In this document: positions 22,621-41,793 of the stretch, piece after piece | Layout: every line of letters starts with the position of its first letter | Position numbering within the stretch: the first letter of the stretch is position 1 | Source: a virus | Length of the DNA stretch: 64,000 nucleotides | Direction: 5' to 3' (one strand) | IMG/VR virus record: IMGVR_UViG_3300042868_012858 | Location: 1 to 64,000 of that record | Translations under genes and position numbers: made by a program | Notes under the pieces: generated by a model | What the model was told of the DNA's origin: nothing | Database searches by the model: none | Seen by the model: only the letters and a program-made list of their open reading frames with translations

Positions 22621-22641
22621 TTTTATTTAATCTTATTTATT

Positions 22642-24106: not shown

Positions 24107-24125
24107 AGCTCTTTATTTTAAGTTT

Positions 24126-24582: not shown

Positions 24583-24900
24583 ATGGAAAATTTCATAGTT
24601 GGGAATAAAGAAAATTTTAAAGAATTAATTTCCTCAGACAAAATAACAATAGTAGATTTTTGGGCAGAGTGGTGTGGGCCATGCAGAACACAACTTCCTA
24701 TATTAGAAAATTATGCTCAAAAAAATGAAGACATTCAGGTTGTAAAAGTAAATGTAGATCAAAACTCTGAATTAGCGTCTGAGTATGGCATTAGAAGCAT
24801 TCCTACAATTTTATATTTCAAAAAAGGCACAATTCAAAATAAAACCGTCGGTGTTCAACAGGAAGATCAATTAAATGAAATAAAAAAACAAATTTTATGA
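24583..24900 (+). CDS. trxA: Thioredoxin
   Basis: 105 residues, normal thioredoxin length. Active site WCGPC at residues 30-34 and cis-proline in RSIPT (Pro74), with the usual beta-alpha-beta order (IVDFWAEWC, VVKVNVD, TILYFKKG). It reduces disulfides; several phages encode one for nucleotide reduction or polymerase processivity, but here it is the first gene of the glycan run, its last 4 nt (ATGA) overlapping the next start. Whether it serves glycan enzymes or is just co-transcribed is unknown. Confidence 0.95.
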   Translation: MENFIVGNKENFKELISSDKITIVDFWAEWCGPCRTQLPILENYAQKNEDIQVVKVNVDQNSELASEYGIRSIPTILYFKKGTIQNKTVGVQQEDQLNEIKKQIL

Positions 24901-25700
24901 TTAATGCAATAATCTTTTCAAAAGATAGAGCATCACAATTAAGGTTGCTTCTTTATAGTATTCAAAAAAACGCACCACATGCATTTAATTTGAATGTAAT
25001 ATATACTTCTTCTAATGAAGAATTTAAAAAAGGATATGAAAAAGTAAAAGGCGAATTTTCTAGCTTGTGTAATTTTGTAGAGCAAACAGATAATTTCAAA
25101 GAAGATGTTTTGACTCTCTTAAATTCTGAGAGTGAATTTAGCTGTTTCTTTACAGACGATGATATTATTTACCAACCATTTGATGTAGAAAGCGTAAAGA
25201 ATTCTATAAGAGCAGATGATGATGTTTTTTGCTTCTCTTTAAGATTGGGAACTAATGTTACTTTCTGCTATACTATGAACACGGAAAACGTTCTTAAAAA
25301 CTATGAGGATTTAGATGAGTTAATAAAATGGAATTGGTCTTTGCACTACCTAGACTTTGGATATCCATTATCAGTTGATGGGCATATATTTAGAACGAAA
25401 GATATTTTAAAGCTTACCAAAAAAGTATCATTTACCAATCCTAATCTTTTCGAGGGCAATCTTCAAATTTTTGATACGTTTCCTAAAGAAAAAATGGTTT
25501 CTTTTAAAAGTAATGTACTAGTCAATACTCCAAATAATATCGTAAATTCAACACACCCAAATAGACATTCTGCTGATTTCGGAATTGGAGTAAAGCAATT
25601 AAATGATGAATATTTGTCTGGAAAAATTATAGACTTGGAGTCTATGGACTTTTCTAATATTGTAGGGTGTCATCAAGAGATAGAATTTAAATACAAATAA
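24897..25700 (+). CDS. Putative glycosyltransferase (GT-A-like)
   Basis: 267 residues. Begins with a GT-A-like strand INAIIFSKDRASQLRLLLYSI, and has FSCFFTDDDIIY near residues 80-91, where a metal-binding DxD would lie. Later GYPLSVDGHIFRTKDI resembles acceptor-side loops of related enzymes. I assign it to the glycosyltransferase superfamily by fold pattern, without a CAZy family. Start overlaps the thioredoxin stop by 4 nt (ATGA), indicating translational coupling; the next gene starts 1 nt after its stop. Confidence 0.7.
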   Translation: MINAIIFSKDRASQLRLLLYSIQKNAPHAFNLNVIYTSSNEEFKKGYEKVKGEFSSLCNFVEQTDNFKEDVLTLLNSESEFSCFFTDDDIIYQPFDVESVKNSIRADDDVFCFSLRLGTNVTFCYTMNTENVLKNYEDLDELIKWNWSLHYLDFGYPLSVDGHIFRTKDILKLTKKVSFTNPNLFEGNLQIFDTFPKEKMVSFKSNVLVNTPNNIVNSTHPNRHSADFGIGVKQLNDEYLSGKIIDLESMDFSNIVGCHQEIEFKYK

Positions 25701-26354
25701 ATGTCAAAGCATTATATTATAGAAAGGGCTAAATCTAGATTGGGAAGCCCTACGATGAATTTAGAATTGGATGATAAAATTGTAGATGCGTTATTTGACG
25801 AAGCATCATCAACATTTTTATATTACTACCAACTTTCTAAAGCAAAGGAAAATAGTGTTTTTCAAAATATAACTGACAATAGTCTTAGTAAAATAGAAAC
25901 CTCTTGGGTTTGTAGATATTTTACTGCATTACTAAAAGAGGCCCTTGGAAATGTAAGAGGCAAGTTTGGTGGTGAAATTAATGTTCCTGGCGGACCATTT
26001 AAATTAGAGTATTCGCATTTACTTAGAGAAAGTGAATCGGAAAAGATATCTCTTATTAAAGACATATATCCTCATCACGAATATAGCGCTTCTCCATTTG
26101 CGCTACTTGGTGTTTATGTAAATATTGGAAATTTAGATACAAAAGATGCAGAGGCAATAATGGATAAAGTGTCTCACTCTTTTTCAGAAACACTTCCAAA
26201 GTATATCAAAACAGTCATTATGCCTTCTAGGGTAGAAAGTAAAATAGAAGTAGTTTATTCAAATAATTCAAATAAAGAAATAGATTTTGAGTTATTAGAA
26301 CAACTTAAAGACTTAGACAAAGAATTAGAAAAATACATTAAAGATGAAGAATAA
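25701..26354 (+). CDS. Second gp13-like neck protein inside the glycan run
   Basis: 217 residues. The first 115 follow the gp13-like protein at 6269-7462: RLGSP--NLELDD near the start, a helix with conserved aromatics, then SWVCRYFTALLKEALG, RGKFGG and a PGG strand, but without the Gly-rich middle insertion. The C-terminal 100 residues (LLGVYVNIGNLDTKDAEAI) are not found in the first copy. I infer a virion attachment protein related to the neck, possibly anchoring an accessory structure. It starts right after one glycosyltransferase stop and overlaps the next by 11 nt, so it is expressed with the glycan genes. Confidence 0.6.
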   Translation: MSKHYIIERAKSRLGSPTMNLELDDKIVDALFDEASSTFLYYYQLSKAKENSVFQNITDNSLSKIETSWVCRYFTALLKEALGNVRGKFGGEINVPGGPFKLEYSHLLRESESEKISLIKDIYPHHEYSASPFALLGVYVNIGNLDTKDAEAIMDKVSHSFSETLPKYIKTVIMPSRVESKIEVVYSNNSNKEIDFELLEQLKDLDKELEKYIKDEE

Positions 26355-27087
26355 CATAAAAGTAATTACCCCTTTTTATAATCCAGGGGAATTTTTAGAA
26401 ACTTGCGTTAATACGCTTATGTCTCAAAAATATGACAACTTTAAAGTATTATTTGTTGACGATTGTTCAACAGATGGTTCATTTGAAAAACTGCCTCACG
26501 ATAATGAAAAGGCAGTTATTATTAAAAATGAAACTAGAAAAACTGCTTTAGAAAACATACACGATGCTATTATGAATCATTGTGATCCTGATGATATTGT
26601 TGTTTTGATTGATGGTGATGATTGGTTGCCAAATAAAAATGTGCTTTCTTATATAAATGACTTTTATAATCAGAATGATTGTTGGATTATGTATGGTCAA
26701 GCCAATTGGACAGATGGCCGTAGAGGTTTTGCGTCTGCATATTCTGCAGAAGAATTTAAAAACATCAGAAAGTCACCGTTTAGAGTATCTCATTTACGAA
26801 CTTTTAAGGCAGGTCTTTATCAAAAAATAAAAGAACAAGATTCTGAGTTTTCCTGTATGAAAGATTCTGATGGAGATTTTTATAAAATGACATATGATGT
26901 CGCTATTATGTTCCCTATTCTAGAAATGGCTGGCGTAGAAAAAGTTGCATTTAATGATACAATTCTGTATATTTACAACAGAAATAATCCAATTAGCGAT
27001 GATAAAGTAAATCAGCAGCTTCAGTGGAATATTCATACAGAAATATCAAACAAAAAATCTTTTAACAAAATAGAAGATTATAAATAA
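26344..27087 (+). CDS. Glycosyltransferase family 2
   Basis: 247 residues. Clear GT2 N-terminus: IKVITPFYNPGEFLETCVNTL, then FKVLFVDDCSTDGS, and the metal-binding region VVLIDGDDWL at about residues 88-97. The DGDDW motif is characteristic of this group. It would transfer a sugar from a nucleotide donor to an unknown acceptor in the cytoplasm; no membrane anchor. Overlaps the gp13-like gene by 11 nt and directly abuts the paralogous GT2 at 27088. Confidence 0.9.
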   Translation: MKNNIKVITPFYNPGEFLETCVNTLMSQKYDNFKVLFVDDCSTDGSFEKLPHDNEKAVIIKNETRKTALENIHDAIMNHCDPDDIVVLIDGDDWLPNKNVLSYINDFYNQNDCWIMYGQANWTDGRRGFASAYSAEEFKNIRKSPFRVSHLRTFKAGLYQKIKEQDSEFSCMKDSDGDFYKMTYDVAIMFPILEMAGVEKVAFNDTILYIYNRNNPISDDKVNQQLQWNIHTEISNKKSFNKIEDYK

Positions 27088-27828
27088 ATGGAGAATTTTT
27101 TTACCATAGCCATAGACACTTGCAATCATAAAGATTGGATTGAAAGGTGTCTAAATACTTGTCTTACTCAAAAATATGACAATTATGAAGTTGTATTGGT
27201 TGATGCATTGTCTGATGATAATACTTTTGAAATTGCCGAGCGATATGCAAAAGAATTTCCTAGATTAAAAATTTACCAAAACGAAGTAAGAATACCTCAG
27301 ATAGCTAATTTTTTGTGGCTTACAGAATTATCTAGACCAAACTCAATAGTTGTATCGGTGGATGGTGATGACTGGCTTAAGCACGGAAAAGTACTTAGTA
27401 AGTTAAATGATGTTTATAACTCTGGAGATGTATGGATGACTTATGGTACATATGAAGAATTTCCATATAGAGACGTTTCTTCAATATATCAGCCATATCC
27501 ACAGGAAGTAGTAGAAAATAACTCGTTCAGGGAATATAGATGGTTGGCATCTCATTTAAGAACCTATAGACGAGAGTTATTTCTTAAAATTAATTTAGAA
27601 GATTTTAAGAGAGAAGATGGTGAGTGGTTGGATACAGCTGGAGATCAAGCTATGATGCTTCCTATGTTAGAAATGGCTTCAGAAAGAAGTAGACATATTT
27701 CAGAAGCATTACTTGTGTATAATGTAGCTAATGTTACAAGAGATGGTGCTTTAAATGAATCAAGACAAGTCGAACTTGCTAACTATGTGAGGTCGAAAAA
27801 TAAATACACTAGATTAGAAAGTTTATAA
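27088..27828 (+). CDS. Glycosyltransferase family 2 (paralogue)
   Basis: 246 residues, paralogous to the preceding gene: FTIAIDTCNHKDWIERCLNT, YEVVLVDALSDDNT and VVSVDGDDWL at residues 90-99, plus a shared ASHLRTYRRELF segment also seen as VSHLRTFKAGLY upstream. Tandem duplication with divergence suggests two successive linkages of similar type. No membrane segment. Starts 1 nt after the previous stop; its own stop overlaps the next start (TAATG). Confidence 0.9.
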   Translation: MENFFTIAIDTCNHKDWIERCLNTCLTQKYDNYEVVLVDALSDDNTFEIAERYAKEFPRLKIYQNEVRIPQIANFLWLTELSRPNSIVVSVDGDDWLKHGKVLSKLNDVYNSGDVWMTYGTYEEFPYRDVSSIYQPYPQEVVENNSFREYRWLASHLRTYRRELFLKINLEDFKREDGEWLDTAGDQAMMLPMLEMASERSRHISEALLVYNVANVTRDGALNESRQVELANYVRSKNKYTRLESL

Positions 27829-28529
27829 TGGTTATAGGAAATGGAATGTTGGCAAAGGCTTTTGGTTCATATATAAAAAACGAAAACGTTATTATATATG
27901 CATCTGGTGTGTCCAATTCCGCTGAAAATTCCGATGAAAACTTCCAAAGAGAAATAAATTTACTAAAAAGTTGTATTCAAGAAAATACAAATAGTTTAAT
28001 AATATACTTTAGTACGTGTAGTGTGAACGATGATAGTTTAAAAGATACTAAATATGTTCAACATAAAAAATTCATAGAAGATTATATTCAAAAAAACGCA
28101 CAAAAGTTTATTATTTTCAGGCTACCGATAGTAATTGGACATACAAAAAATAATTTCACGCTATTCAATTTTTTAAAAGAAAAATTATCTTCAAACCAAG
28201 ATGTGTTCATTCAAAAAAATGCATATAGATATTTAGTTGATATAGAAGATATTTCAAATGTTTTATCTAGAGTTATAGATTCTGGAGAATTTTCAAATTC
28301 TATAATTGATGTTAATTTTAGCAAGAAAATCAGTGTATTGGAAATATCTAATATTATCAAAAAAGAACTACAATCAAATTCAAAAATTAGCATAGTAGAT
28401 GGTGGCGGTTCTTATTATGTAAATGATTCACAATTAAATGGTTTTATTTCCAATAAAAAAATAAATTTTCCTGAAACATATAACGAAGAAGTATTAAAAA
28501 AATATTTAAAAAAAACAATCGAAGTATGA
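27828..28529 (+). CDS. NAD-dependent epimerase/reductase-like protein
   Basis: 233 residues. A short-chain dehydrogenase fold: nucleotide-binding start VIGNGMLAKAF, strand IIYFSTCSV, then YVQHKK that supplies the YxxxK pair, and IIFRLPIVIG followed by YLVDIEDISNVL. These match extended SDR enzymes acting on nucleotide sugars, but the protein is short (usual 290-330), lacking much of the substrate domain. May act on a nucleotide-linked keto sugar; substrate not predictable. Coupled to both neighbours by overlapping start and stop codons. Confidence 0.75.
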   Translation: MVIGNGMLAKAFGSYIKNENVIIYASGVSNSAENSDENFQREINLLKSCIQENTNSLIIYFSTCSVNDDSLKDTKYVQHKKFIEDYIQKNAQKFIIFRLPIVIGHTKNNFTLFNFLKEKLSSNQDVFIQKNAYRYLVDIEDISNVLSRVIDSGEFSNSIIDVNFSKKISVLEISNIIKKELQSNSKISIVDGGGSYYVNDSQLNGFISNKKINFPETYNEEVLKKYLKKTIEV

Positions 28530-29413
28530 TTAATCAATTGAAGTTTAAGATAAATGAAAACAAAATAGACTATGAGTCTATAAAATCAAACGCAATAATC
28601 AACTTGCTAAATGATGAAGAGTTTGATGTCAATATTATAATTGGTTGCAGAGGAAGAAAGAATTTTACTATGCCACTAATAGAGAGTTTTGAAAATGCGA
28701 TAAAAAATACTCCAAATAAAAAAATCACTATTACGTTTGTGGATCATAATACATTTCCAGAGCATATGAAGCTTGTGAAAGGAAGAGCTAGTTATATGTG
28801 GACAGAAGGTAATGTGTCCGACCAATATAGTAGAAGTTTTGCTTATAATTTTGGTGTTAAATATGGAAATAATGCTAAGTTCTATTTACTGCATGACTTG
28901 GACATTTTAGTCAAGGAAAACTTTTTTAACGAGCTTTTTGAAAACCTAGGAGAACAAAAGTGTATACAGCCATACGGAGGTAGAAGAGTTCTATATATGT
29001 CTGAAAGCTTAACTAAAAGAGTTATAGAAAAAGAAATAGATTATAACAATTTCAATCAAGATTCTCCAGAAGTTAGCTTACCTATGTTTAATGGTCAACC
29101 TGCGCTTGGGTCAAAAGGCGGATCAATCTTTATAGAGAGAGAATTGTTTGAAGAGGTTGGTGGTTTTGATCCTGAGTTATTTTGGGGGTATGCTGCAGAA
29201 GACCAATTTTTTTGGGAGAAAGTTAACGCTGTTTCAAAAGTCGGGTTTGCAGATAGTCCTTTAGTAGATATGTTTCACATGTGGCATCCACCTTCTTATG
29301 TTACAAATCCATTGCTTCATATTATGGAAAATGATTGGATTATGTTTAAGAATTTAAACACAGAAGAAAAGATGGAAATAATTAATCTAAAAAAGAAATT
29401 ATATGCAGAATAA
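28526..29413 (+). CDS. Glycosyltransferase, GT7-like (galactosyltransferase type)
   Basis: 295 residues. FDVNIIIGCRGR opens the GT-A domain; FYLLHDLDILV carries a DxD-type motif near residue 127; the C-terminal part has GGSIFIERELFEEVGGF followed by WGYAAEDQFFW, which matches the GT7 C-terminal domain signature (GG-s/t-F-GG/NGF-WGWG-ED). GT7 enzymes transfer Gal or GalNAc. Start overlaps the previous stop by 4 nt, end overlaps the next gene by 11 nt. Confidence 0.8.
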   Translation: MINQLKFKINENKIDYESIKSNAIINLLNDEEFDVNIIIGCRGRKNFTMPLIESFENAIKNTPNKKITITFVDHNTFPEHMKLVKGRASYMWTEGNVSDQYSRSFAYNFGVKYGNNAKFYLLHDLDILVKENFFNELFENLGEQKCIQPYGGRRVLYMSESLTKRVIEKEIDYNNFNQDSPEVSLPMFNGQPALGSKGGSIFIERELFEEVGGFDPELFWGYAAEDQFFWEKVNAVSKVGFADSPLVDMFHMWHPPSYVTNPLLHIMENDWIMFKNLNTEEKMEIINLKKKLYAE

Positions 29414-30296
29414 GGCTTTTATATTCACAGAATCTTATGGGTGTGGTCTAATATTAAAAAAATGTTTAGAATCTTTTTTTAGGCATCATCCCGATACTAT
29501 AGTTCACGTATTTGGTACTCACAAAGACTTTAAAGAGTTGGGTAAATTCAAAAATGTAGAATATATTGAACTGAGTGAAGATTTGGAGCTTAAAGAATGT
29601 TTTAAGCATGGTCACCTAGGAACTGCTCACATAGGAGCTAGGGTCATAAAAGAATTTTCAAAAGGATTTGATTACATCATTCATTTTGATAGCGATGTAA
29701 TATTTCAAAAAGAATCTCTTTCTTTGTTGTACGATAAAATTGATGAAGGATACGATTTAATAGGACCTGTTAGATGTTATAAAAATAATATGAATGGTAG
29801 AACAGATTTGTCTGAATTATCAGATGTTTCTCAAACATATTTTTATGCGTTTAACAAAACAAAAATAAGCGACTATAGTTTTGTTGATTTAAGAAATATG
29901 ATTGTTGGTTTTCACAATCCTTTGAATCATCCAATATTAGATTACTTTGATCCTGTTTCTTTTGATATTTTAAAAAATGGAGGTAAGTCTTATTTTCTAA
30001 ATGTAGATTTGGTTGGAGGTTTAACTCTTGAGGGAAACAGAAAAAATAAATATGAAGAATTGAATAGCGACATGGATTTCGGAGAAAACCTAATGCATTT
30101 TGCTGGAGTCGGATCTGGAATGAAATTTCATTTTCAAGGGGCAGAGCAAACAAATCAATCATATGTAGATTGGGCTCTTAAAAGATTTGCTTTGTATTAC
30201 AAATTATTTTATGGAATTTCTATAGATAATGTTGAGGTTGATGATAAAAAGTTTGAATTACTAAAAAAAGAAATCGATGAAACAGCTAATTGTTAG
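29403..30296 (+). CDS. Putative glycosyltransferase (GT-A, DSD motif)
   Basis: 297 residues. An N-terminal strand AFIFTESYGCGLILKKCLESF, and FDYIIHFDSDVIF at about residues 90-102 with a DxD metal-binding motif, followed by a YDLIGPVRCY strand. The C-terminal half holds YFLNVDLVGGLTLEG and HFAGVGSGMKFHFQG. I recognise the superfamily but not the family; donor and acceptor unknown. It overlaps both neighbours (11 and 20 nt), typical of this run. Confidence 0.75.
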   Translation: MQNKAFIFTESYGCGLILKKCLESFFRHHPDTIVHVFGTHKDFKELGKFKNVEYIELSEDLELKECFKHGHLGTAHIGARVIKEFSKGFDYIIHFDSDVIFQKESLSLLYDKIDEGYDLIGPVRCYKNNMNGRTDLSELSDVSQTYFYAFNKTKISDYSFVDLRNMIVGFHNPLNHPILDYFDPVSFDILKNGGKSYFLNVDLVGGLTLEGNRKNKYEELNSDMDFGENLMHFAGVGSGMKFHFQGAEQTNQSYVDWALKRFALYYKLFYGISIDNVEVDDKKFELLKKEIDETANC

Positions 30297-31077
30297 CAAT
30301 ATAGATCCGTCTTGGCCTAATATAGAAGTAGAATACGCTAAACCTATAGAATTGTTTATTGATAGTCTTAATGGATATAATCCAGCTAAAAATTCTTTTA
30401 AGATTTTATGGGTAAAAGAAATGGAGGCTATTAGTAATTTTAGGAGCACAGCTATAGATAATAAAGATAAGTTTGATGCTATTCTGACTTATGATGAGGA
30501 AATATTAAAACAATGTGAAAATGCACACCTGATGTTATTTGGAACATCCTGGGTGCACAACTATAATTTTTCTGATAAAAAATTTCAAGTATCTCATCTT
30601 ACTGGTCATAAAAACTATGCAGTCGGACATAAACTTAGACAAAAAATTCATTATAAACAAAATAGTATAAAAACGCCAAAGGATTTTTATATTAGTAAAT
30701 ATGGAGGTGTGGAAAATTTTGCTAATAACAAAATCTTGGGTGAACAAAAAGAGCCTTTGTTTGATTCTCAGTTCCATATTTGTATAGAAAATTCTCAGCA
30801 GTCCAATTGCTTTACTGAAAAAATTATGGATTGTTTTGTAACTAAGACAATTCCTATTTACTTTGGTGCGCCAAATATCGACAAATACTTTGACATAAAT
30901 GGCGTTCTTGTGGTGAATAATTTTGAAGACATTTTAAGCGTATGTAATTCATTGACCGAAGAAGATTATATTAGTAGGATATTTTCTGTAGAAAAAAACT
31001 TTGAATTAGCTCAAAAATATATTACTATTGTTGATAGACTTAAGAGCGTAATAATTAATATAATTGAAAAAAAATAA
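30277..31077 (+). CDS. Fucosyltransferase-like glycosyltransferase (GT10)
   Basis: 266 residues. The C-terminal half has the GT10 signature: FHICIENSQQSNCFTEKI then PIYFGAPNIDKYFD (about residues 165-205), equivalent to the FENS...TEK...P-v-yGaP motif of alpha-1,3/1,4-fucosyltransferases, in which the Glu and Lys contact GDP-fucose. The N-terminal acceptor half is variable, as usual. The cluster also encodes Gmd and a GDP-fucose synthase-type enzyme, so the donor could be made in place. Shorter than most GT10 proteins (300-400). Cytoplasmic by sequence. Confidence 0.85.
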   Translation: MKQLIVSNIDPSWPNIEVEYAKPIELFIDSLNGYNPAKNSFKILWVKEMEAISNFRSTAIDNKDKFDAILTYDEEILKQCENAHLMLFGTSWVHNYNFSDKKFQVSHLTGHKNYAVGHKLRQKIHYKQNSIKTPKDFYISKYGGVENFANNKILGEQKEPLFDSQFHICIENSQQSNCFTEKIMDCFVTKTIPIYFGAPNIDKYFDINGVLVVNNFEDILSVCNSLTEEDYISRIFSVEKNFELAQKYITIVDRLKSVIINIIEKK

Positions 31078-31083
31078 AATAGT

Positions 31084-31800
31084 ATGGACAAAAATAAGCC
31101 TTTAATAACTATTATTATACCTTGTTATGAGATGAGAGGTGAGGGTGTGTCGTTTTTAAACTTTTCTCTTGAAAAAATCTACTCACAAAGCTATAAAAAT
31201 ATAGAAGTGTTGATTTCAGACCAATCAAATAATTCAGATATTTTTGAAGCCGTTAAAGCTTGGGATAAAAAATTAAACATCAAATATTTTTTGAATACAG
31301 GATCAGAGAAGAGTTCATCATCAAACTTAAATTTTGCCCTGAAAAAAATATCCGAAGAAACAAAGTATGTCAAATATTTATTTCAAGATGATTTCTTGTT
31401 AAACGAAGAATCAATTCAATTGACAATAGATTCTTTAGAATTAAATCCAGATAAACATTGGCTTGTAAGCTCTTGCTACCATAGTAATAATGGTCAAGAC
31501 TTATATTATCCTTTTGAACCGTATTTTTATGAAGACATATTTTTGGGAGAACCTAATTCTATTAGCGCACCATCTGTATTAACGGTAAGAAGAGAGGCTG
31601 CAATAGATTTTGATAAAAATTTGATATGGCTAATGGATGTTGACTATTATAGACGACTTTATGATGAGTTTGGAGAGCCAATTATATTAGATAAACACAC
31701 TGTAGTAAACAGAACTTGGGGAGGTCAAGTTGGAAACAATGTAAGTGCAGAAACACAAGAAATAGAAAAAAATATTGTAACAGAAAAATTTAAAAAATAA
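31084..31800 (+). CDS. Glycosyltransferase family 2
   Basis: 238 residues. ITIIIPCYEMRGEGVSFLNF start, IEVLISDQSNNSDIFE, and VKYLFQDDFLLNEES, where QDD takes the place of the usual DxD. LIWLMDVDYYRRLYDEFGEP near the end resembles the GT2 acceptor-site segment containing the catalytic acidic residue. This variant GT2 is typical of polysaccharide and O-antigen loci. Acceptor unknown. It begins 6 nt after the GT10 gene. Confidence 0.85.
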   Translation: MDKNKPLITIIIPCYEMRGEGVSFLNFSLEKIYSQSYKNIEVLISDQSNNSDIFEAVKAWDKKLNIKYFLNTGSEKSSSSNLNFALKKISEETKYVKYLFQDDFLLNEESIQLTIDSLELNPDKHWLVSSCYHSNNGQDLYYPFEPYFYEDIFLGEPNSISAPSVLTVRREAAIDFDKNLIWLMDVDYYRRLYDEFGEPIILDKHTVVNRTWGGQVGNNVSAETQEIEKNIVTEKFKK

Positions 31801-31802
31801 AA

Positions 31803-32372
31803 ATGGAAAAAATTGAAGACATATTCAAACAAAAATGCTTAATAAGTAATGATATAAATGAGCATTTACCTGTATTAAAAAAATATACAGAGGATTGTGA
31901 TGTAGTGGTAGAAGCTGGAGTTAGAAGTATTGTTTCTACTTGGGCTTTTTTAGCTGGCAAACCTAAAGAGTTAATATCAGTAGATATAATACACCCATCT
32001 ACCTACATTAACCACGACCCTAGTGGTTGTAACATTAATTTAGTAGAACAATTGGCGCACGAAAATGACATTAATTTTAGATTTATGTTAGGTAGTACTC
32101 TAGAAATTGAAATTCCTGAATGTGACCTTTTGTTTCTAGACACTCTCCATAATTATAGCCAGTTAAAAAAAGAGCTAGAACTGCACTCAAATAAGGCTAA
32201 AAAATACATCATACTGCATGATACAGAAAGTTTTAAAGATAAAGGAGAAACCAATAATGAAGACGGCATAGGAAGAGCTTTAGATGAATTTTTAGAAGAG
32301 GGAAATTGGGTAATTAGAGAAAGGTTGACAAACAACAATGGTTTAACTATTTTAGTTCCAAAAAATGCTTAG
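31803..32372 (+). CDS. SAM-dependent methyltransferase-like protein
   Basis: 189 residues. Rossmann-like pattern: VVVEAGVRSIVSTWAFL (motif I), ELISVDI, CDLLFLDTLHNYSQLKKEL and YIILHDTESF. The D-T-L-H and HDT signatures match the Methyltransf_24 / cephalosporin-hydroxylase-like group that methylates sugars or amino sugars. A sugar O-methyltransferase role is inferred from the surroundings. The next start lies 8 nt inside its end. Confidence 0.75.
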   Translation: MEKIEDIFKQKCLISNDINEHLPVLKKYTEDCDVVVEAGVRSIVSTWAFLAGKPKELISVDIIHPSTYINHDPSGCNINLVEQLAHENDINFRFMLGSTLEIEIPECDLLFLDTLHNYSQLKKELELHSNKAKKYIILHDTESFKDKGETNNEDGIGRALDEFLEEGNWVIRERLTNNNGLTILVPKNA

Positions 32373-32997: not shown

Positions 32998-32998
32998 A

Positions 32999-33619: not shown

Positions 33620-33623
33620 AACC

Positions 33624-34328: not shown

Positions 34329-34330
34329 TT

Positions 34331-35272
34331 ATGATTGTAACGGAATTGTATAATGGTCAAGGCTTAGGCAATCAATTATGGTGTTATGCTGTAACTAGGG
34401 TTATTGCTGCTGATAACGATTTTGGTTTTGGTATAATATCTCCTGAAAAATTCAAAGGCAATAATATATTAAATTTAGATTTCGGTAAGCAGGTTATTGG
34501 AGGTAAATCCCCAGAGGGAGGACCTCCAATAACTCTTCCGAATGGAATAGCTTCTTATTACAGGGAAAAGTACGAACAACACCCTTATTTTAGATGTGAT
34601 ATCTCACCATTAGACTTAAACTTAGTTAGTGTGTGCGATAATACTAAAATAGAGGGCGTCATGCAATCTGTAGGTTATATCCATCATAGAAAAGATGACA
34701 TATTAAAATGGCTGAAAATAAAAGATGAGGGTAATGTTGACAATACGCATTTAGGTGAAAATGTATGCGTTGTTCATATACGTGGAGGTGATTTTAGAGG
34801 AGTTTCAGACACTATATTACCGAAGAGCTATTTTATTAATTCTATGGAAAAAATAAAGCTAGTTAATGAAAAAATTGAATTTGTAATAGTAACAGATGAT
34901 GTTCAATATGCCAAGAGTATACTGCCTGGTGTAAAAATAATAGGATCATCAGAGTTTAGTGCAGAAGATTCTTTCAAGGCTAGTCATCATTTAGGAGGAC
35001 CGATTGAACACGACTACTCTATAATAAACAAAGCAAGGTATTTGATATTATCTAACTCTAGCTTTAGTTGGTGGGCAGCTTATACAAATGTTGATTTGCA
35101 ATTTTTAATAGCTCCTAAATATTGGGCTAAACACAATATTTCAGATGGGTTTTGGTCAACTGATGACATAATGACTCCAGGGTGGAACTATATTGACAAA
35201 GAAGGTAATCTTTTTAGTTATGAAGATTGTAGAAAAGAACTTGATGAATATAAAAAAATTAAAAATGAGTAA
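34331..35272 (+). CDS. Alpha-1,2-fucosyltransferase-like (GT11)
   Basis: 313 residues. GT11 features: an N-terminal GQGLGNQLWCYA, VVHIRGGDF near residue 147 (the H-x-R-x-G-D donor motif; the second Arg of the usual HxRRGD is Gly here), FVIVTDDVQYAKSIL, and YLILSNSSFSWWAAYT, the strongly conserved SNSTFSWWAA-type motif. Family members add L-fucose from GDP-fucose to the 2-position of Gal or related sugars. Fits with the GDP-sugar genes downstream. The end overlaps the next gene by 8 nt. Confidence 0.87.
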   Translation: MIVTELYNGQGLGNQLWCYAVTRVIAADNDFGFGIISPEKFKGNNILNLDFGKQVIGGKSPEGGPPITLPNGIASYYREKYEQHPYFRCDISPLDLNLVSVCDNTKIEGVMQSVGYIHHRKDDILKWLKIKDEGNVDNTHLGENVCVVHIRGGDFRGVSDTILPKSYFINSMEKIKLVNEKIEFVIVTDDVQYAKSILPGVKIIGSSEFSAEDSFKASHHLGGPIEHDYSIINKARYLILSNSSFSWWAAYTNVDLQFLIAPKYWAKHNISDGFWSTDDIMTPGWNYIDKEGNLFSYEDCRKELDEYKKIKNE

Positions 35273-36152
35273 ACCAAAAGTGTATGATTGTTTTATTTTT
35301 TTTAATGAACTTGATTTATTAGAAATAAGACTAAATATAATGAATCAGTTTGTAGACTATTTTGTTATAGTGGAATCAAACAAAACATTTTCTGGAAAAG
35401 ATAAATCGTTTATACTAGAAGAAAACATGCATAGATTTTCTTCTTTTAAGGATAAAATAATTTACAAAAAAATAGAAGATACTCCAGAAGATTTTGTAAA
35501 TATCAAATCTTGTTTTGATGAAAAAAATTACAAATTTGACAACCCTAAAGAACTTGAGGTTATTAAAAACATAGCATCTTATATAGAAAATACTACTTAT
35601 TGGCCGAGAAACGAAACACAGTGGGGTAGGGAAATATTTCAAAGAGAGTGTATGTTGAGGTGTTTAACTAATTGTGATGATAATGATATAGTAATGTTAT
35701 CAGATTTAGATGAAATACCCAACTTAAACATTTGTAATTTTGAAGATATTTTATTAGATTTACCTATAACTTCTAAACAGCATATGTTTTATTATTTTTT
35801 GAACTACAGATTAGATGAGATTTGGATTGGAACAAAAATATGCAGATATAGATATTTAAAAAAAGATTTTGTAAACGAAGTAAGAAGATTAAGGGAGACT
35901 GAATACTCATTACCTAATTTAGGTTGGCATTTTTCTTTCTTGGGTGGCATCGAAAAAATAAAACAAAAAATAGAAGCTTTTTCTCACCAAGAATACAACA
36001 ATGATTCTATAAAATCAAATATAGAAGAAAATGTAAAGAGCGGAAACGATATATTTGGTCGAGGAAAAAGTGTACGAAAAGTGGAGGTTGATGATTCATT
36101 TCCTCTTTTTCTAATAGAAAATAAAACAAAATATAATAAATTTTTTATATAA
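35265..36152 (+). CDS. GT17-like N-acetylglucosaminyltransferase
   Basis: About 295 residues from the ATG at 35265 (MSKPKVYDC); a longer frame from 35193 lies mostly inside the previous gene, so it is rejected. GT17 markers: VYDCFIFFNELDLLEIRL, YFVIVESNKTFSGK, a W-x-RE-x-QR segment, IVMLSDLDEIPN (the DxDE motif), and GWHFSFLGGIEKIKQKI followed by HQEYN. The reference GT17 enzyme is beta-1,4-mannosyl-glycoprotein GlcNAc-transferase (bisecting GlcNAc); bacterial and phage members are common in glycan loci, with unknown acceptors. Confidence 0.87.
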   Translation: MSKPKVYDCFIFFNELDLLEIRLNIMNQFVDYFVIVESNKTFSGKDKSFILEENMHRFSSFKDKIIYKKIEDTPEDFVNIKSCFDEKNYKFDNPKELEVIKNIASYIENTTYWPRNETQWGREIFQRECMLRCLTNCDDNDIVMLSDLDEIPNLNICNFEDILLDLPITSKQHMFYYFLNYRLDEIWIGTKICRYRYLKKDFVNEVRRLRETEYSLPNLGWHFSFLGGIEKIKQKIEAFSHQEYNNDSIKSNIEENVKSGNDIFGRGKSVRKVEVDDSFPLFLIENKTKYNKFFI

Positions 36153-36157
36153 AAATC

Positions 36158-36937
36158 ATGGAAAACAATAAAATTAAATTAGATTTTTTAAAAAGGGTAT
36201 TAACCGATACAGTTTATAATGATGAGGTGAGAAACTCTTTTTTTGATACAAAAGAATTCCCAGGTGTTGATGTTATGAATAGCATTATAAACTCTTCAGT
36301 GGAAGAGAAAAGAATGGGTGGTATGGATTGGCCAGAAAGAGCTCATACTATGGTGGGAGTTAAGAGATTGAATAATTTACACGAAACTTTAGATTATATA
36401 AGAAAAAATAATATAGACGGAGACTTTATAGAAACTGGCGTGTGGAGAGGAGGGGCTTCTATATTTATAAAGCTATATAATGATTTGTATTCATTAAATA
36501 GAAATGTGTTTGTAGCAGACTCTTTTGCTGGACTACCACCTCCTGATTCAGATAAATACCCAGTAGATGAAGGTGACATCCATCACACTATACCATATCT
36601 TAGTGTTTCATTGGATCAAGTTACAGAAAATTTCAAACTATACAACGCTCTTGATGAATCTGTAATTTTTCTGAAAGGTTGGTTTAGTGACACTCTAAAA
36701 AATAATGATAACATAAAAAATTTAGCACTACTAAGGTTTGATGGAGATATGTACGGTTCTACTATGGATGTGTTTGAAAATTTATACCACAAGGTTAATT
36801 CAAAAGGGGTGATTATTGTTGATGACTACTGCCTGCCAAACTGTGTAAAAGCAGTAACTGATTTTAGACAAAAGAATAATATAACAAATGAAATAAAAAC
36901 AGTTGATTCATGCGGGGTGTATTGGATTAAAGATTAA
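36158..36937 (+). CDS. TylF/macrocin-type O-methyltransferase
   Basis: 259 residues. GMDWPERAHTMVGVKRLNNL, then GDFIETGVWRGGASIF near residue 90, NVFVADSFAGLPPPD, LALLRFDGDMYGSTMDV and GVIIVDDYCLPNCVKAV. These are the defining features of the TylF (Pfam MT family of macrocin O-methyltransferase) group, which methylate deoxysugar hydroxyls using SAM and a metal held by the D-x-D and DD residues. It supports a methylated deoxysugar as final product. Confidence 0.92.
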   Translation: MENNKIKLDFLKRVLTDTVYNDEVRNSFFDTKEFPGVDVMNSIINSSVEEKRMGGMDWPERAHTMVGVKRLNNLHETLDYIRKNNIDGDFIETGVWRGGASIFIKLYNDLYSLNRNVFVADSFAGLPPPDSDKYPVDEGDIHHTIPYLSVSLDQVTENFKLYNALDESVIFLKGWFSDTLKNNDNIKNLALLRFDGDMYGSTMDVFENLYHKVNSKGVIIVDDYCLPNCVKAVTDFRQKNNITNEIKTVDSCGVYWIKD

Positions 36938-36950
36938 ATCTATGTAAAAT

Positions 36951-37601
36951 ATGAAAACATTAGACGAAATAGCCATAGAACATAAAACAGATAAATCTAG
37001 TATATCACATAATTATACAGAACATTACGCAAATCATTTTGAAAAAATAAGATTTAATAATCTGAAAGTTTTGGAAATAGGAATCCAAAATGGTTTCTCA
37101 TTAAAAATGTGGAAAGAATATTTTGAGAACTCTACAATAGTTGGTATAGATTTAACGGATTTAACTCATCTAAAAGAAGATAGAGTGGAAATAGAAGTTG
37201 GGAATCAATCAGATGAAGATTTTTTAAAAAGAGTTAGCGAACAATATGGACCATTTGATATAATAATTGATGATGGAAGCCATAAAAGTATAGATATTAG
37301 AAAAAGTTTTTATTGTTTATTCCCACTATTAAAAAATGGAGGGTATTATGTAGTTGAAGATTTACATACAAATTATTGGGAAAGAAATAACATCACAGAA
37401 GGTTGGTTTATTAATGAAAATTATGATACTTTCATAAATGACATTAAATTGTTTATCGACTATTCTAATTCTAATGGTAAAAGTGGTTATGCCAATAGAA
37501 AAATGGATGATACACACGCTTTTCAAGAAATGAATTATTGGGAAAAAAATATATACTCCGTGCATTCCTATAGAAGTATTTGCTTCATAAATAAGTGCTA
37601 A
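36951..37601 (+). CDS. SAM-dependent methyltransferase
   Basis: 216 residues. VLEIGIQNGFSLKMWKEYF near residue 41 (motif I), TIVGIDLTD, FDIIIDDGSHKSIDI and LLKNGGYYVVEDLHTNYW. The D-D-G-S-H and V-E-D-L-H-T pattern is typical of small methyltransferases in polysaccharide and macrolide sugar loci. The N-terminal KTLDEIAIEHKTDKS is also conserved in that group. Probably O-methylates a sugar. Fifth methyltransferase-like protein in this run. Confidence 0.85.
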   Translation: MKTLDEIAIEHKTDKSSISHNYTEHYANHFEKIRFNNLKVLEIGIQNGFSLKMWKEYFENSTIVGIDLTDLTHLKEDRVEIEVGNQSDEDFLKRVSEQYGPFDIIIDDGSHKSIDIRKSFYCLFPLLKNGGYYVVEDLHTNYWERNNITEGWFINENYDTFINDIKLFIDYSNSNGKSGYANRKMDDTHAFQEMNYWEKNIYSVHSYRSICFINKC

Positions 37602-37613
37602 TTATATTTTAGA

Positions 37614-38795
37614 ATGAATGCAACGAATAATCAAATAACCTTAGTAAAAGACACAATTAACAATAATGATATAGACAATTTGATATCATGGTTAGAGACG
37701 TACCCTAAATTGACTAAAGGTGAAAAGACGATTGAATTTGAAGAAATGTGGTCAAAGTGGATGGGGTGTAAATATTCTGTATTTGTTAATTCAGGATCAT
37801 CCGCAAATCTACTGATGTTCTATGCATTGAAAGAACTTTATAAGTTAAGGAATAATAAGATTGCGATACCAGCATTGAGTTGGGCTACAGATTTATCGCC
37901 AGCAATTCATCTAGGATTTGAACCAATATTAGTAGATTGTAATCTAGATAATTTATCTGTTGATTTAAAGCATTTAGAAGAGCTTTTTAAAGAAGAAGCT
38001 CCGTCTGCTCTAGTTTTAGTATCTGTGTTAGGGTTAGCTCCTGAAATTGATAAGATTGTAAGTTTATGTAAAAAATACGATGTTATTTTATTGGAGGATA
38101 ATTGTGAAAGCCAAGGCACATCAGTAAACGAATTGAAATTGGGTAATTTTGGATTGATGTCTTCTTTTTCAACTTATTTTGGGCACACTATGAGTACAAT
38201 AGAGGGTGGTATGGTGTGCACTAACGATAAAGCTGTTTATAATATGATTAAACAGCTTAGAAGTCATGGGTGGGATAGAGATTTGGATGTTGAAACGCAA
38301 AGAAAACTACGAAATGATTGGAATGTAGATTCATTTTCATCTCTTTATACTTTTTATGTACCAGGATTCAATTTAAGATCTACTGACTTGCAAGCTGTTA
38401 TAGGAATAGGGCAACTCAAAAAGATTGATGATATGATTTCAAAAAGAAACGAGAATTTTAAAAAATTCTCTGACTTATTAAAAGGTCATACTTGGTTTCC
38501 AAAAGAAACGGACAATAGCTTCACATCTAGCTTCTGTATTCCTATAATTGCAGTAAGTTCTGAACAAAAAAAAAGAATAGTTGACAAATTAATAAATAAT
38601 GGTGTTGAGTGTAGACCTTTGATATGCGGCTCTATGGGGACTCAGCCTTTCTATGTAAAAAAATACGGAAGAAAAGAATTGCCAAACGCTTCAATTGTTG
38701 ATTCTTGTGGTTTGTATGTTCCAAATCATCCAAATCTTACAGATGAAGAAATTGAAAGAATTTGCAATTGCATATTAACTTCATTAATAAAATAA
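37614..38795 (+). CDS. PLP-dependent sugar 3-dehydratase-like (ColD-type, DegT fold)
   Basis: 393 residues, full-length DegT/DnrJ/EryC1 fold (VNSGSSANLL near residue 60, IPALSWATDLSP, VLLEDNCES with Asp162). In ordinary family aminotransferases a lysine six residues before the EGG motif forms the PLP Schiff base; here the sequence is TYFGHTMSTIEGG and the equivalent residue is His191. Histidine here is the hallmark of ColD (GDP-4-keto-6-deoxymannose 3-dehydratase) and RfbH. The next genes make the ColD substrate, so 3-deoxygenation of GDP-4-keto-6-deoxymannose is the best guess. Alternative: an inactive or novel aminotransferase. Confidence 0.8.
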   Translation: MNATNNQITLVKDTINNNDIDNLISWLETYPKLTKGEKTIEFEEMWSKWMGCKYSVFVNSGSSANLLMFYALKELYKLRNNKIAIPALSWATDLSPAIHLGFEPILVDCNLDNLSVDLKHLEELFKEEAPSALVLVSVLGLAPEIDKIVSLCKKYDVILLEDNCESQGTSVNELKLGNFGLMSSFSTYFGHTMSTIEGGMVCTNDKAVYNMIKQLRSHGWDRDLDVETQRKLRNDWNVDSFSSLYTFYVPGFNLRSTDLQAVIGIGQLKKIDDMISKRNENFKKFSDLLKGHTWFPKETDNSFTSSFCIPIIAVSSEQKKRIVDKLINNGVECRPLICGSMGTQPFYVKKYGRKELPNASIVDSCGLYVPNHPNLTDEEIERICNCILTSLIK

Positions 38796-38798
38796 TTT

Positions 38799-39716
38799 AT
38801 GGAAAATAGAATTATTGTCACAGGCGGTAATGGACTATTAGGTAGTGCTGTTAAAAATAAAATTGAAGCTTTCACTTTTAGTAGCTCAGAATATAATCTA
38901 GAAAAAGATAGTTTTTCAAAACTACTTTCTTTACCAACAAATCAATCGGTAGATACAATTATACATTGTGCGGCAAAAGTGGGAGGTGTAGGTGCAAATA
39001 TGAACGCAAACTTTGAGTTCTTCCAAAAGAATGTAAAAATTGACCAAAATGTATTAAATTCCTGCTTAGAGCATAGAATAGAAAATCTTGTAACAATATT
39101 ATCAACTTGTGTATTTCCTGATAAAGTTGAATACCCGCTTACTGCAGATAAAATTGATTTAGGTGCGCCACACTTTTCTAATTATGGATATTCTTACGCA
39201 AAAAGACTATTGTATTACCAAACTAAGATGTATAGAAATGTGGTTGGTAAAAATTGGATTTCGGTCATACCAACAAACTTATATGGAGCTAACGACAACT
39301 TCAATTTAGAAAATTCTCATCTTATTCCAGCTTTAATAAGAAAAGCTCACGAAGCATCTATAAGCGGTGAAAATTTTGTCGTTTGGGGAGATGGTTCTCC
39401 ATTGCGTCAATTTGTTTATTCGGAAGATATGGCAAAGATTATTCTTTGGGCTGTAGAAAATTGGAAATCAGAAAGTCCTTTGATGGCTGTAAATGAAAGA
39501 GAGTATTCCATCAAAGAAGTTGCTATGATTATTGCGGATAGATTTGGAATTTCTGAAAATAAAATTATATTTGATAAAACCAAGCCTAATGGTCAATTTA
39601 GGAAGCCAGCAAAGTCGGATGTGAATTGGTTCGAATTTACACCACTTGACGAAGGTATAAATAAGACAATAGATTGGTTTGTTGAAAATTATAATAAAAA
39701 TAATATAAGACTTTAA
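38799..39716 (+). CDS. fcl: GDP-L-fucose synthase-type epimerase/reductase
   Basis: 305 residues. NAD(P)-binding TGGNGLLGS (residues 8-16), AAKVGGVGAN (58-67), STCVFPDK with Ser102 and Cys104, YSYAK with Tyr131 and Lys135, NLYGANDNF, and His174 in SHLIPALI. The serine, cysteine, tyrosine, lysine and histidine correspond to Ser107, Cys109, Tyr136, Lys140 and His179 of E. coli GDP-fucose synthase with a constant offset of five. It converts GDP-4-keto-6-deoxymannose to GDP-L-fucose. Because a ColD-like gene precedes it, a ColC role (GDP-L-colitose synthesis) is an alternative. Confidence 0.87.
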   Translation: MENRIIVTGGNGLLGSAVKNKIEAFTFSSSEYNLEKDSFSKLLSLPTNQSVDTIIHCAAKVGGVGANMNANFEFFQKNVKIDQNVLNSCLEHRIENLVTILSTCVFPDKVEYPLTADKIDLGAPHFSNYGYSYAKRLLYYQTKMYRNVVGKNWISVIPTNLYGANDNFNLENSHLIPALIRKAHEASISGENFVVWGDGSPLRQFVYSEDMAKIILWAVENWKSESPLMAVNEREYSIKEVAMIIADRFGISENKIIFDKTKPNGQFRKPAKSDVNWFEFTPLDEGINKTIDWFVENYNKNNIRL

Positions 39717-39717
39717 A

Positions 39718-40776
39718 ATGAAAAAAGCGCTGATTTTTGGAATCACAGGACAAGATGGGAGTTATCTTGCTGAGTTGTTGTTGGAGAAAGGGTATGAGGT
39801 TCATGGGGTGATAAGAAGATCTTCGTCTTTTAACACTGGTAGGCTTGAACATATATTTAGTAAGTTAGTACTTCACTATGGAGACGTTACAGACCCTTTA
39901 GCTGTGACAAATATAATCTCGCAAATCAAACCTGATGAAATTTATAATTTATCAGCTCAATCTCATGTTAAAGTTTCTTTTGAGATGCCGTATTATACAG
40001 GAATGGTTGATTCATTAGGTACAATGGCTGTATTAGAAGCTATGAGAGCTCATTGCCCAACTTCAAAATTCTATCAGGCATCCACTTCTGAGTTATATGG
40101 AGGAATGGAACATAATAGACCTGAAACTGGTTATACTGAAGAGTCTCCTTTTCACCCAAGAAGCCCTTACGGTGTTGCTAAAATCTATGGATTTTGGGCT
40201 GTAAAAAACTATCGAGAAGCATATAATCTTTATGCGTGCAACGGAATTCTGTTCAATCACGAATCACCTAGAAGGGGTGGTACTTTTGTAACAAAGAAGG
40301 TTGTGGATGCGCTTGTTGAAGTTAAGTGCAATAACGGAAAGCCTCTAAAAATAGGAAATTTAGAAGCTAAAAGAGATTGGGGTTACGCAAAAGAATATGT
40401 TGAAGGTATGTGGCTTATGCTACAACAAGATAAGCCTGAAGACTTTGTGTTGGCTACAGGAGAAGTTCATGCAGTTAGAGAACTTGTTGAAGTTACCGCA
40501 ACTCATTTGGGTTATGAAATAAAATGGGAAGGTGAAGGTGTAGAAGAAAAAGGATACGATTCAAAAACAGGTAAACTTCTTGTTGAAGTAGATTCTCAAT
40601 ATTTTAGACCATCTGAAGTTGATTATTTATTGGGTGACCCTAAAAGAGCTCAAGAAATATTGGGTTGGGAACCAAAAACAAAATTTAAAGAATTGATTAA
40701 CATTATGGTAGATCACAGATTGTGCAACTACCCTTCTCATTCTGTTGATTTAATTAAAGAAGTTAGTGAAAAATAA
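39718..40776 (+). CDS. gmd: GDP-mannose 4,6-dehydratase
   Basis: 352 residues, standard length. GITGQDGSYLAELLL at the N-terminus, VIRRSSSFNTGR, the STSELYGG substrate loop, YGVAKIYGFW (YxxxK) and LFNHESPRRGGTFVTKK, all diagnostic of Gmd. It makes GDP-4-keto-6-deoxy-D-mannose from GDP-mannose, the common precursor of GDP-fucose, GDP-rhamnose, GDP-perosamine and GDP-colitose. GDP-mannose itself must come from the host, since no mannose pathway gene is seen here. Begins 1 nt after the fcl stop and overlaps galE by 11 nt. Confidence 0.96.
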   Translation: MKKALIFGITGQDGSYLAELLLEKGYEVHGVIRRSSSFNTGRLEHIFSKLVLHYGDVTDPLAVTNIISQIKPDEIYNLSAQSHVKVSFEMPYYTGMVDSLGTMAVLEAMRAHCPTSKFYQASTSELYGGMEHNRPETGYTEESPFHPRSPYGVAKIYGFWAVKNYREAYNLYACNGILFNHESPRRGGTFVTKKVVDALVEVKCNNGKPLKIGNLEAKRDWGYAKEYVEGMWLMLQQDKPEDFVLATGEVHAVRELVEVTATHLGYEIKWEGEGVEEKGYDSKTGKLLVEVDSQYFRPSEVDYLLGDPKRAQEILGWEPKTKFKELINIMVDHRLCNYPSHSVDLIKEVSEK

Positions 40777-41755
40777 AAAGGTTTTAATTACTGGAGGTTT
40801 AGGTTATATCGGAAGTCATACAATTGTTAAACTATACGAGAATGGGTATGAGCCGATTATAATTGACAACCTTTCAAATTCAAATATATCAGTACTTGAT
40901 AGTATTGAAGAGATTGTTGGTACTAAACCTTTGTTTTATGAACTAGATATTGAAAGAGATGTTGCTCAAATATGTCAAATGTTATTAAGAGAAAAGGTAG
41001 AGTATGTCATTCATTTCGCAGGATATAAATCTGTTAAAGAATCAGTCGTAAATCCTATAAAGTATTTTTCTAATAACATAAACTCTACTACGCAACTTCT
41101 ATACGCCCTTCAGATATCTGGTGTTAAAAAATTAATTTTTTCTTCTTCTGCAACAGTTTATGGGGAGGCGGATTATTTTCCAGTTACCGAAAATACTCCT
41201 AGAAAAAAGCCAACAAACCCTTATGGTGAATCTAAATATATTTGTGAAGATATAATAGAAACAACCTGTAAGTTCACTGACTTATCCGCAGTATCATTAA
41301 GATATTTTAATCCAATAGGAGCTCATCCATCTGGTAAGATATTTGAAAACCCAAAAGGCATTCCAGAAAATTTAGTACCATATATCCAAAGAGTAATAAG
41401 TGGTGAGTATGAAAAGCTTACTATTTTTGGAAATGATTACGACACAATAGACGGAACGTGTATTAGAGATTATATCGATGTAAATGATTTAGCTCAAGCT
41501 CACATAAATGCACTTAATGTTTGTGAAAATGGCTATAAGTTTTACAATATAGGATCTGGAAGTGGTTACTCTGTATTGGAATTAATAAACGAATTCAAAA
41601 AACAATCAATAGATGTTCCTTTTATTTTTGCAAGTAGAAGAAGTGGTGATGTTCCGAAAATATATGCAGATATTACCAAGGCAAAATTAGAAATGAATTG
41701 GAGTCCATCTGTGTCAATAGAAGAAACAATTAAATCTATAATAAATCTAAAATAG
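40766..41755 (+). CDS. galE: UDP-glucose 4-epimerase
   Basis: 329 residues. GGLGYIGSHT near the start, IDNLSNS, FAGYKSVKESV, SSSATVYG (about 126-133), NPYGESK with Tyr153 and Lys157, RYFNPIGAHPSG and DYIDVNDLA. These match GalE, which interconverts UDP-glucose and UDP-galactose (or GlcNAc/GalNAc forms). It could supply the donor for the GT7-like enzyme at 28526. Last gene of the run, followed by a 62-nt gap holding a host-type promoter. Confidence 0.93.
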   Translation: MKNKKVLITGGLGYIGSHTIVKLYENGYEPIIIDNLSNSNISVLDSIEEIVGTKPLFYELDIERDVAQICQMLLREKVEYVIHFAGYKSVKESVVNPIKYFSNNINSTTQLLYALQISGVKKLIFSSSATVYGEADYFPVTENTPRKKPTNPYGESKYICEDIIETTCKFTDLSAVSLRYFNPIGAHPSGKIFENPKGIPENLVPYIQRVISGEYEKLTIFGNDYDTIDGTCIRDYIDVNDLAQAHINALNVCENGYKFYNIGSGSGYSVLELINEFKKQSIDVPFIFASRRSGDVPKIYADITKAKLEMNWSPSVSIEETIKSIINLK

Positions 41756-41763
41756 TTAATATT

Positions 41764-41793
41764 TTGGATTTTTATTTTTTTTAACTAAATTTG
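41764..41793 (+). promoter_or_regulatory. Host-type promoter TTG-N19-TAAATTTG
   Basis: TTG (41764-41766), 19 nt, TAAATTTG (41786-41793): a full match to the Bacteroidota primary-sigma consensus TTG-N19-21-TAnnTTTG, 24 nt before the ATG at 41818. The best host-type promoter in the window. Confidence 0.6.

Follow-up and report, generated by a model that had tools for sequence, protein, structure and literature searches.

Introduction

Long runs of genes for glycosyltransferases (GTs), epimerases, aminotransferases and methyltransferases (MTs), varying in content between relatives, are known from several T4-like phages, including the 15-gene cluster of P-SSM2 (PMC7824862), the hypervariable region of pelagimyophages (PMC7029224) and a 13-gene run of ACG-2014f, in which a ColD-like protein is 37% identical. 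In T4-like phages, clusters of this scale are usually read as O-antigen modification against superinfection (PMC7824862, PMC7029224). Here we describe a run of this kind at positions 24583-41755 of the window, by which is meant the whole 64,000-base stretch analysed (positions 1 to 64,000 of the 73,569-base viral record IMGVR_UViG_3300042868_012858). The run is a predicted phage-encoded soluble glycan assembly island, and virion glycosylation is tentatively proposed as its best reading. The initial annotation held that methylated, fucosylated virion glycans are rarely described at this scale, but gene clusters as large as this, such as those named above, have been described in T4-like phages. 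Islands in T4-like phages are already known; the new feature is a protein in the island core that combines parts related to the neck protein gp13 and to the clip domain of the portal gp20. The island further differs from the cyanophage and pelagiphage clusters in that it holds neither photosynthesis genes nor a tail fibre, occupies a fixed site, and probably belongs to phages of Bacteroidota.

Outside the T4-like phages, the chlorovirus PBCV-1 and mimivirus likewise make their own GDP-fucose or rare deoxysugars, and their GTs and sugar methyltransferases are grouped in clusters that are specific to clades (PMC9614988). These viruses, however, infect eukaryotes and their virion glycan is established, whereas no homologous acceptor is present here and the run is known from its genes alone. 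Mycobacteriophages bear glycans on virion proteins, namely the subunits of the capsid and of the tail tube (Freeman et al. 2023, cited in PMC12619734), but those described have few GTs, Maravista having two, against the 22 genes here, some of them for making and methylating sugars. Moraphages and other Bacteroidota jumbo phages are likewise large and aquatic, with predicted Bacteroidota hosts and several core-genome GTs, and the available part of their description mentions neither a glycan island nor the chimera (PMC12619734).

The Glycan Island and Its Fixed Site

The record, with a GC content of about 31%, is, judged from its predicted gene products, part of a T4-like myovirus, and T4-like virion genes surround the run, such as those for the tail sheath (1597-4278), the major head protein (8554-10212), the prohead protease (11816-12481) and the baseplate wedge (53941-55794), all recognized with PHROGs. 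The run consists of 22 consecutive open reading frames (ORFs), rather than the 20 genes first counted, all on the plus strand. After an ORF called at 35193 was re-started at the ATG at 35265, the junction gaps are, in order, -4, 0, -11, 0, -1, -4, -11, -20, 6, 2, -8, 1, 4, 2, -8, 5, 13, 12, 3, 1 and -11 nt, thus spanning -20 to +13 nt, with 9 of the 21 junctions overlapping and 2 abutting, while 62 nt separate the end of the run from the next gene. Family assignments were made with Pfam, PHROG, NCBIfam and Foldseek, and gave ten GT-like proteins, five MT-like proteins, five nucleotide-sugar enzymes, one thioredoxin and one further protein (W29, below). Those for the GTs at 28526, 29403, 24897 and 32365, the MTs at 31803 and 33624 and the sugar enzyme at 27828 are weak, fold-based or inferred. 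These results agree with the initial annotation as regards the tight coupling (gaps of at most 14 nt, about half of them overlapping) and the numbers of enzymes (about ten GTs, five MTs and three to five nucleotide-sugar enzymes), and the enzyme families bear out its description of a phage-encoded glycan assembly run, which is unusually large for an island of this known kind.

Relative contigs of up to 372 kb were gathered by matches to the major head protein and to the core GT. In the window and 12 of these relatives, a glycan island of differing content lies at the same site. Both flanks are shared in G001, G003, G004, G012, G013, G016, G017 and G019, the left one consisting of homologues of the genes at 14262-24482, and the right one of the A1-like DNA transfer protein (41818-43404, plus strand; phrog_1745, E 7e-156), which forms the island boundary, together with homologues from 43408 onwards. 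In G002, G014, G018 and G020 the left flank is the same, and the run is truncated or its right side altered. The absence of an island from G010 is uninformative, because this contig also has no matches to most of the neighbouring virion genes. Nine measured islands span 7.0 to 24.6 kb and hold 11 to 28 ORFs, counting those of 75 amino acids (aa) or more. Across the islands the 5' end is shared (thioredoxin, GT28, W29 and GT30), the middle is variable, and the 3' end is often shared (ColD, Fcl, GMD and GalE). Among 129 island proteins surveyed with Pfam were 21 epimerase-family, 16 GT2, 12 FkbM, 7 GT10, 5 DegT and 4 GT11 members; of the 70 Pfam families, the 25 commonest included none of transporters.

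A Neck and Portal Chimera in the Island Core

The ORF at 25701-26354 (plus strand), left unclassed in the initial annotation, proved to be a virion-protein chimera, here called W29, with a gp13-like N-terminal part (phrog_211, head-tail adaptor) and a gp20-clip-like C-terminal domain (about residues 131-217), both recognized by profiles. A profile of the whole W29 family matches T4 gp13 structures in the PDB (E 8e-7), and that of its N-terminus matches the phage's own full-length gp13-like neck adaptor, the related 397-aa protein W_5 (6269-7462, minus strand; phrog_211, E 2e-10), with E 5e-21 through residues 19-63 and 291-356. W29 does not have the full-length gp13 architecture; only these two stretches of W_5 are represented, followed by a foreign C-terminal domain, so that its N-terminus would be a shortened gp13-like core, such as the loss of a long insert would leave. 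Foldseek searches with the W29 model (mean predicted local distance difference test score (pLDDT) 70) gave no significant match, the homology resting on profiles. Searching viral contigs by pattern for 25701 alone also found no match, and the W29 relatives were gathered by synteny and hidden Markov models.

The C-terminal domain is about 85 residues long, and occurs as a stand-alone protein of 84-104 aa directly 3' of GT28 in G003, L175, L180, L181 and L182. When a profile of this domain was built without portals, its matches were portal proteins of about 600 aa, at about 50 of the loci fetched, and apart from these just the W29 relatives and a single 64-aa ORF in G004. Profile-profile comparison of the W29 domain with two portals (hhalign) gave E 4e-6, and a stand-alone copy matches the portal family phrog_213 at 273-332 (E 0.006). 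Through the T4 portal alignment, the matched stretch corresponds to about residues 284-356 of T4 gp20, whose clip domain (residues 279-358, three strands and one helix) lies outside the capsid and is the attachment site of gp13 (PMC4493910). The predicted order of the W29 domain, strand-helix-strand-strand, is in keeping with this clip composition. The wing, stem and crown domains of portals are missing from W29, the clip-like domain being present alone. Since true portals of about 600 aa and a full gp13-like protein are encoded elsewhere in these genomes, W29 is an extra, chimeric copy. In G004, the gp20 portal gene (L146:349-3729, 1126 aa) is interrupted at the end of the clip domain by an apparent intein, and portals of 935 aa (L066) and 1017 aa (L020) may resemble it.

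Upstream of W29 lies the core glycosyltransferase GT28 (24897-25700, plus strand), a GT-A-fold protein with a DDD motif at residue 87, which has no Pfam or PHROG match. The N-terminal half of its AlphaFold model resembles TarP, SpsA and GnT-I in the PDB; confidence in the model is modest and its C-terminal half weak (mean pLDDT 48), so only the GT-A N-terminus was used. Homologues of GT28 were found at 24 loci among viral contigs. Another phage lineage (L186, L188, L189 and L191) has two GT28-family copies, the first of which is followed by a different small conserved protein with a GIGDHSTxDFxxNLDEAL motif that is not clip-like, and the 735-kb huge phage LR756501 encodes a homologue of 33% identity (L217:15001-15795). 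A clip or neck protein directly follows GT28 in 10 of the 14 islands (the window, G001, G002, G003, G012, G014, G016, G017, G018 and the contig of L180), the other four being those of G004, G013, G019 and G020. The pairing of this GT-A enzyme with a gp13/gp20-clip chimera in the conserved core, while the neighbouring genes change, lends unexpected support to a virion link, and suggests, short of proof, that the sugars are placed on the virus particle.

Predicted Sugar Nucleotide Synthesis, Transfer and Methylation

The 3' end of the run, like all of it on the plus strand, encodes the predicted supply of sugar nucleotides. The DegT-family enzyme at 37614-38795 is predicted to be a ColD-type GDP-4-keto-6-deoxymannose 3-dehydratase and no ordinary aminotransferase. 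Among solved structures E. coli ColD/WbdK (2gms, E 2e-64) is the closest to it, before all aminotransferases (next subgroup, E about 2e-33), and the lysine that would bind pyridoxal phosphate is replaced by a His aligned with that of ColD and conserved in the homologues of G001, G004, G016 and G019. It is followed by a homologue of GDP-fucose synthase (Fcl) or ColC (38799-39716; PDB GDP-L-fucose synthases, E 3.6e-70; NF047922, E 6e-59, below cut-off), a GDP-mannose 4,6-dehydratase (GMD; 39718-40776; TIGR01472, 494 bits against a cut-off of 415; PDB GMD, E 2e-124) and a UDP-glucose 4-epimerase, GalE (40766-41755; TIGR01179, 363 bits against a cut-off of 262). ColC belongs to the same family as the GDP-fucose synthases, and the GT10 and GT11 families use GDP-fucose. 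The combination of GMD with the ColD-type and Fcl-like enzymes makes GDP-fucose and/or GDP-colitose the likely products of the predicted sugar genes, and the fucosylation proposed in the initial annotation is well supported by GMD, Fcl, GT10 and GT11. GMD would yield GDP-4-keto-6-deoxymannose, from which the Fcl-like and ColD-like enzymes would then give GDP-L-fucose and/or GDP-L-colitose, while GalE would supply UDP-galactose. About ten glycosyltransferases would join these sugars and up to five methyltransferases would methylate some of them; the predicted enzymes are identified at the level of families, from which substrates and the order of transfer are inferred.

The run opens with a thioredoxin (24583-24900; PF00085, E 1.6e-27), which has a homologue at the same position in G001, G014, G016, G018 and G020. 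Downstream of W29 are two GT2 glycosyltransferases, the core enzyme GT30 (26344-27087; PF00535, E 3e-15), with homologues in relatives, and a second at 27088-27828 (PF00535, E 5.7e-16). These precede a possible RmlD-like NAD-dependent sugar reductase (27828-28529; PF04321, E 3.5e-4, below cut-off; phrog_540, E 5.6e-9), a possible galactosyltransferase-like GT-A protein with a DLD motif (28526-29413; PF02709, E 1e-3; phrog_1721, E 6e-4) and a possible GT-A-like glycosyltransferase with a DSD motif (29403-30296; PF00535, E 2.8e-4, below cut-off). A GT10-type fucosyltransferase (30277-31077; PF00852, E 4.7e-6, above cut-off), a third GT2 enzyme (31084-31800; PF00535, E 2.1e-6), a possible methyltransferase (31803-32372; phrog_2675, E 8e-4) that is 46% identical to an ORF in G014, and a DUF5672 protein that is a probable glycosyltransferase (32365-32997; PF18922, E 3.9e-23) come next. 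The remaining genes encode an FkbM-family O-methyltransferase (32999-33619; PF05050, E 9.7e-16; TIGR01444, above cut-off), a possible FkbM-like methyltransferase (33624-34328; PF05050, E 5.8e-3), a GT11-type fucosyltransferase (34331-35272; PF01531, E 1.2e-15), a GT17-type glycosyltransferase (35265-36152; PF04724, E 3e-30), a TylF-type O-methyltransferase (36158-36937; PF05711, E 8e-83) and a class I methyltransferase (36951-37601; phrog_21658, E 2.7e-26; PF13578, weak). In the islands of relatives, a carbamoyltransferase (L137:7674-9260, minus strand; one Pfam member in the survey, and recognized by eye in an ORF of G001) and, in G004, what by eye is probably a B12-radical SAM enzyme (L148:17202-19157) make rarer sugar decorations likely.

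Promoters, Timing and Host

Two kinds of promoter-like elements were found. A candidate host-type promoter of the run, TTTG-N20-TAAATTTC (24513-24544, plus strand), has the form TTTG-N20-TAnnTTT(G), which matches the housekeeping promoter of Bacteroidota; G001, G003 and G004 have the same element at a similar distance upstream of the run, and no TATTTAT is found at the run start. The next unit has a perfect candidate copy, TTTG-N19-TAAATTTG (41763-41793, plus strand), and in the larger contigs perfect copies are enriched about 10-fold or more before unit starts. The second element, TATTTAT, lies within 60 nt of the start codon at 13 of 26 unit starts in the window (1.0 expected), 22 of 40 in G001 (2.1 expected) and 81 of 250 in G004 (12.2 expected). 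In record coordinates, it is found before 1457, 5331, 8433, 11758, 12481, 15089, 21493, 24482, 55858 and 64821. In six phage contigs it stands 20-30 nt before many structural gene starts at about 5-14 times chance, and looks like a lineage-specific late promoter. The T4 late promoter TATAAATA was rejected as a unit marker, as it occurs at twice chance in the window, yet not at unit starts. The host is probably a Bacteroidota bacterium, and Flavobacterium phages are among the isolates closest in their head protein. A search of cellular genomes with ColD gave four scattered matches in metagenome-assembled genomes, which are uninformative on the host.

Export Genes and the Possible Acceptor

The initial annotation saw in the run no lipid-linked initiating transferase, flippase, polymerase, ligase or membrane protein, and wider searches are in accord with this. 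Neither the initiating phosphoglycosyltransferase PF02397 nor the Wzx flippase PF01943 was matched in any of six records (the window record and five relatives), in which the controls worked. No plausible multi-pass polymerase or ligase emerged when G004 (372 kb) and G017 (232 kb) were scanned for hydropathy, which brought up just the tape measure and proteins that are small or have few passes. In the run there is no credible membrane segment, the one Kyte-Doolittle peak lying inside the soluble DegT enzyme. With no CheckV completeness given for these contigs, the absence of export genes from the complete genomes is likely without being certain. The argument drawn earlier from what the run lacks, against capsule or O-antigen export and for a cytoplasmic acceptor such as a virion protein or for remodelling of host glycan precursors, holds in part: it is favoured by the lack of phage-encoded export, and a virion link by the W29 chimera, while host machinery could carry out export and any acceptor is putative.

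Sugar-nucleotide enzymes and GTs of its own, with no export genes, are what is expected of a virion glycosylation system, and this is the best reading of the run from its predicted genes, one to which we give a little less than an even chance, the likeliest acceptor being a virion protein made in the cytoplasm. W29, or the neck to which it attaches, would carry or present the glycan, and, through the variable enzymes, the coat near the neck, methylated and rich in deoxysugars, would differ from phage to phage. It is a good deal more speculative, and on balance doubtful, that W29 is a dedicated neck-docking protein (gp13 core plus gp20 clip) glycosylated by GT28, and elongated by exchangeable GTs and MTs into a strain-specific methylated fucose/colitose collar. 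Several points weigh against virion glycosylation. G004 and G019 have no W29 beside GT28, G004 having at most the distant 64-aa clip-like ORF. The run starts at a host-type promoter and not at the TATTTAT of many structural units, so that it need not be co-expressed with the late structural genes; co-timing is not obvious, and the virion reading is somewhat weakened. The host could supply export, and the chimera could be an assembly factor merely located there. If so, W29 would regulate assembly or packaging by imitating the clip and binding gp13 or the terminase; its tie to the glycan genes would be one of location only, with no bearing on the acceptor, which is plausible without being probable and is compatible with the other readings. 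As the gp20 clip binds both the terminase gp17 and gp13 (PMC4493910), either of the two could be titrated by a clip-like domain on its own. The island lies within the virion gene region, and in G013 small clip-like ORFs adjoin the homologue of the GT-B gene at 44297 instead of the core GT, both of which suit a regulator, whereas the position of the chimera directly after GT28 in 10 of 14 islands with otherwise reshuffled genes does not.

Remodelling of the host surface has a considerable, if minority, claim. The enzymes would extend or modify host lipid-linked, lipopolysaccharide or capsule precursors in the cytoplasm, the host initiating transferase, flippase and ligase would export them, and the altered surface would block superinfection or keep progeny off debris. 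Colitose, fucose and O-methyl sugars are typical of O-antigens, the host-type promoter suits early expression, and phage export genes are unnecessary if the host provides them; moreover, this is the standing reading of similar clusters in cyanophages, pelagiphages and jumbo phages (PMC7824862, PMC7029224). On the other hand, no membrane-associated step is encoded, and the pairing of a GT with a neck/portal chimera and the place of the island among virion genes are left unexplained. Hypermodification of DNA, in which the GTs would decorate modified phage bases against restriction, is a known role of phage GTs (cited in PMC12619734), and large phages carry thymidylate synthase homologues, but we consider it very unlikely. 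The varied methylation and deoxysugar genes better suit a long glycan on protein or lipid, and the G004 thymidylate synthase keeps the Asn typical of that enzyme (FNIASY), where a dCMP hydroxymethylase is expected to have Asp. The Tet/JBP oxygenase PF12851 was unmatched in seven records, in which the controls were also unmatched, so that this counts for little. A diffusible sugar-based small molecule or antibiotic hardly comes into consideration: the TylF and FkbM families are also found in antibiotic clusters, but no aglycone-building genes are present and ten GTs imply a long chain. Such a product has been proposed for a different cyanophage cluster (PMC7824862).

Other Features of the Genomes

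Outside the run, two further conserved GT-B proteins are encoded. The first (44297-45520, plus strand; GT4-like; PF00534, E 2e-6) is 48-66% identical in most relatives. In the second (18638-19901, minus strand; phrog_7162 on both pieces, PF00534 on an intact homologue), a frameshift with a small sequence loss leaves two separate ORFs, reflecting real damage or an assembly error, and its homologues in relatives are intact at about 430-460 aa. W52 (45459), GT2-like by eye, found no library support. Most islands share a conserved 771-aa VWA-domain protein (15179-17494; phrog_2426) in their left flank. An HNH homing-endonuclease gene (52290-53441, minus strand) adjoins the baseplate genes, and outside the window, at 67935-70718 of the record (minus strand), a 927-aa protein with many SHAEG-type repeats, as in the heads of trimeric autotransporter adhesins, is probably a tail fibre or adhesin.

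Implications

Glycan islands of T4-like phages are usually taken as modifiers of the host O-antigen without a tested acceptor, whereas here the conserved island core ties the enzymes to a chimera of two proteins that are in contact at the neck. GT28 and W29 therefore offer a concrete candidate for asking whether phages coat their own virions in complex methylated deoxysugar glycans, as chloroviruses do, and, if this is true, a viral route to colitose-type dideoxysugars would be added.

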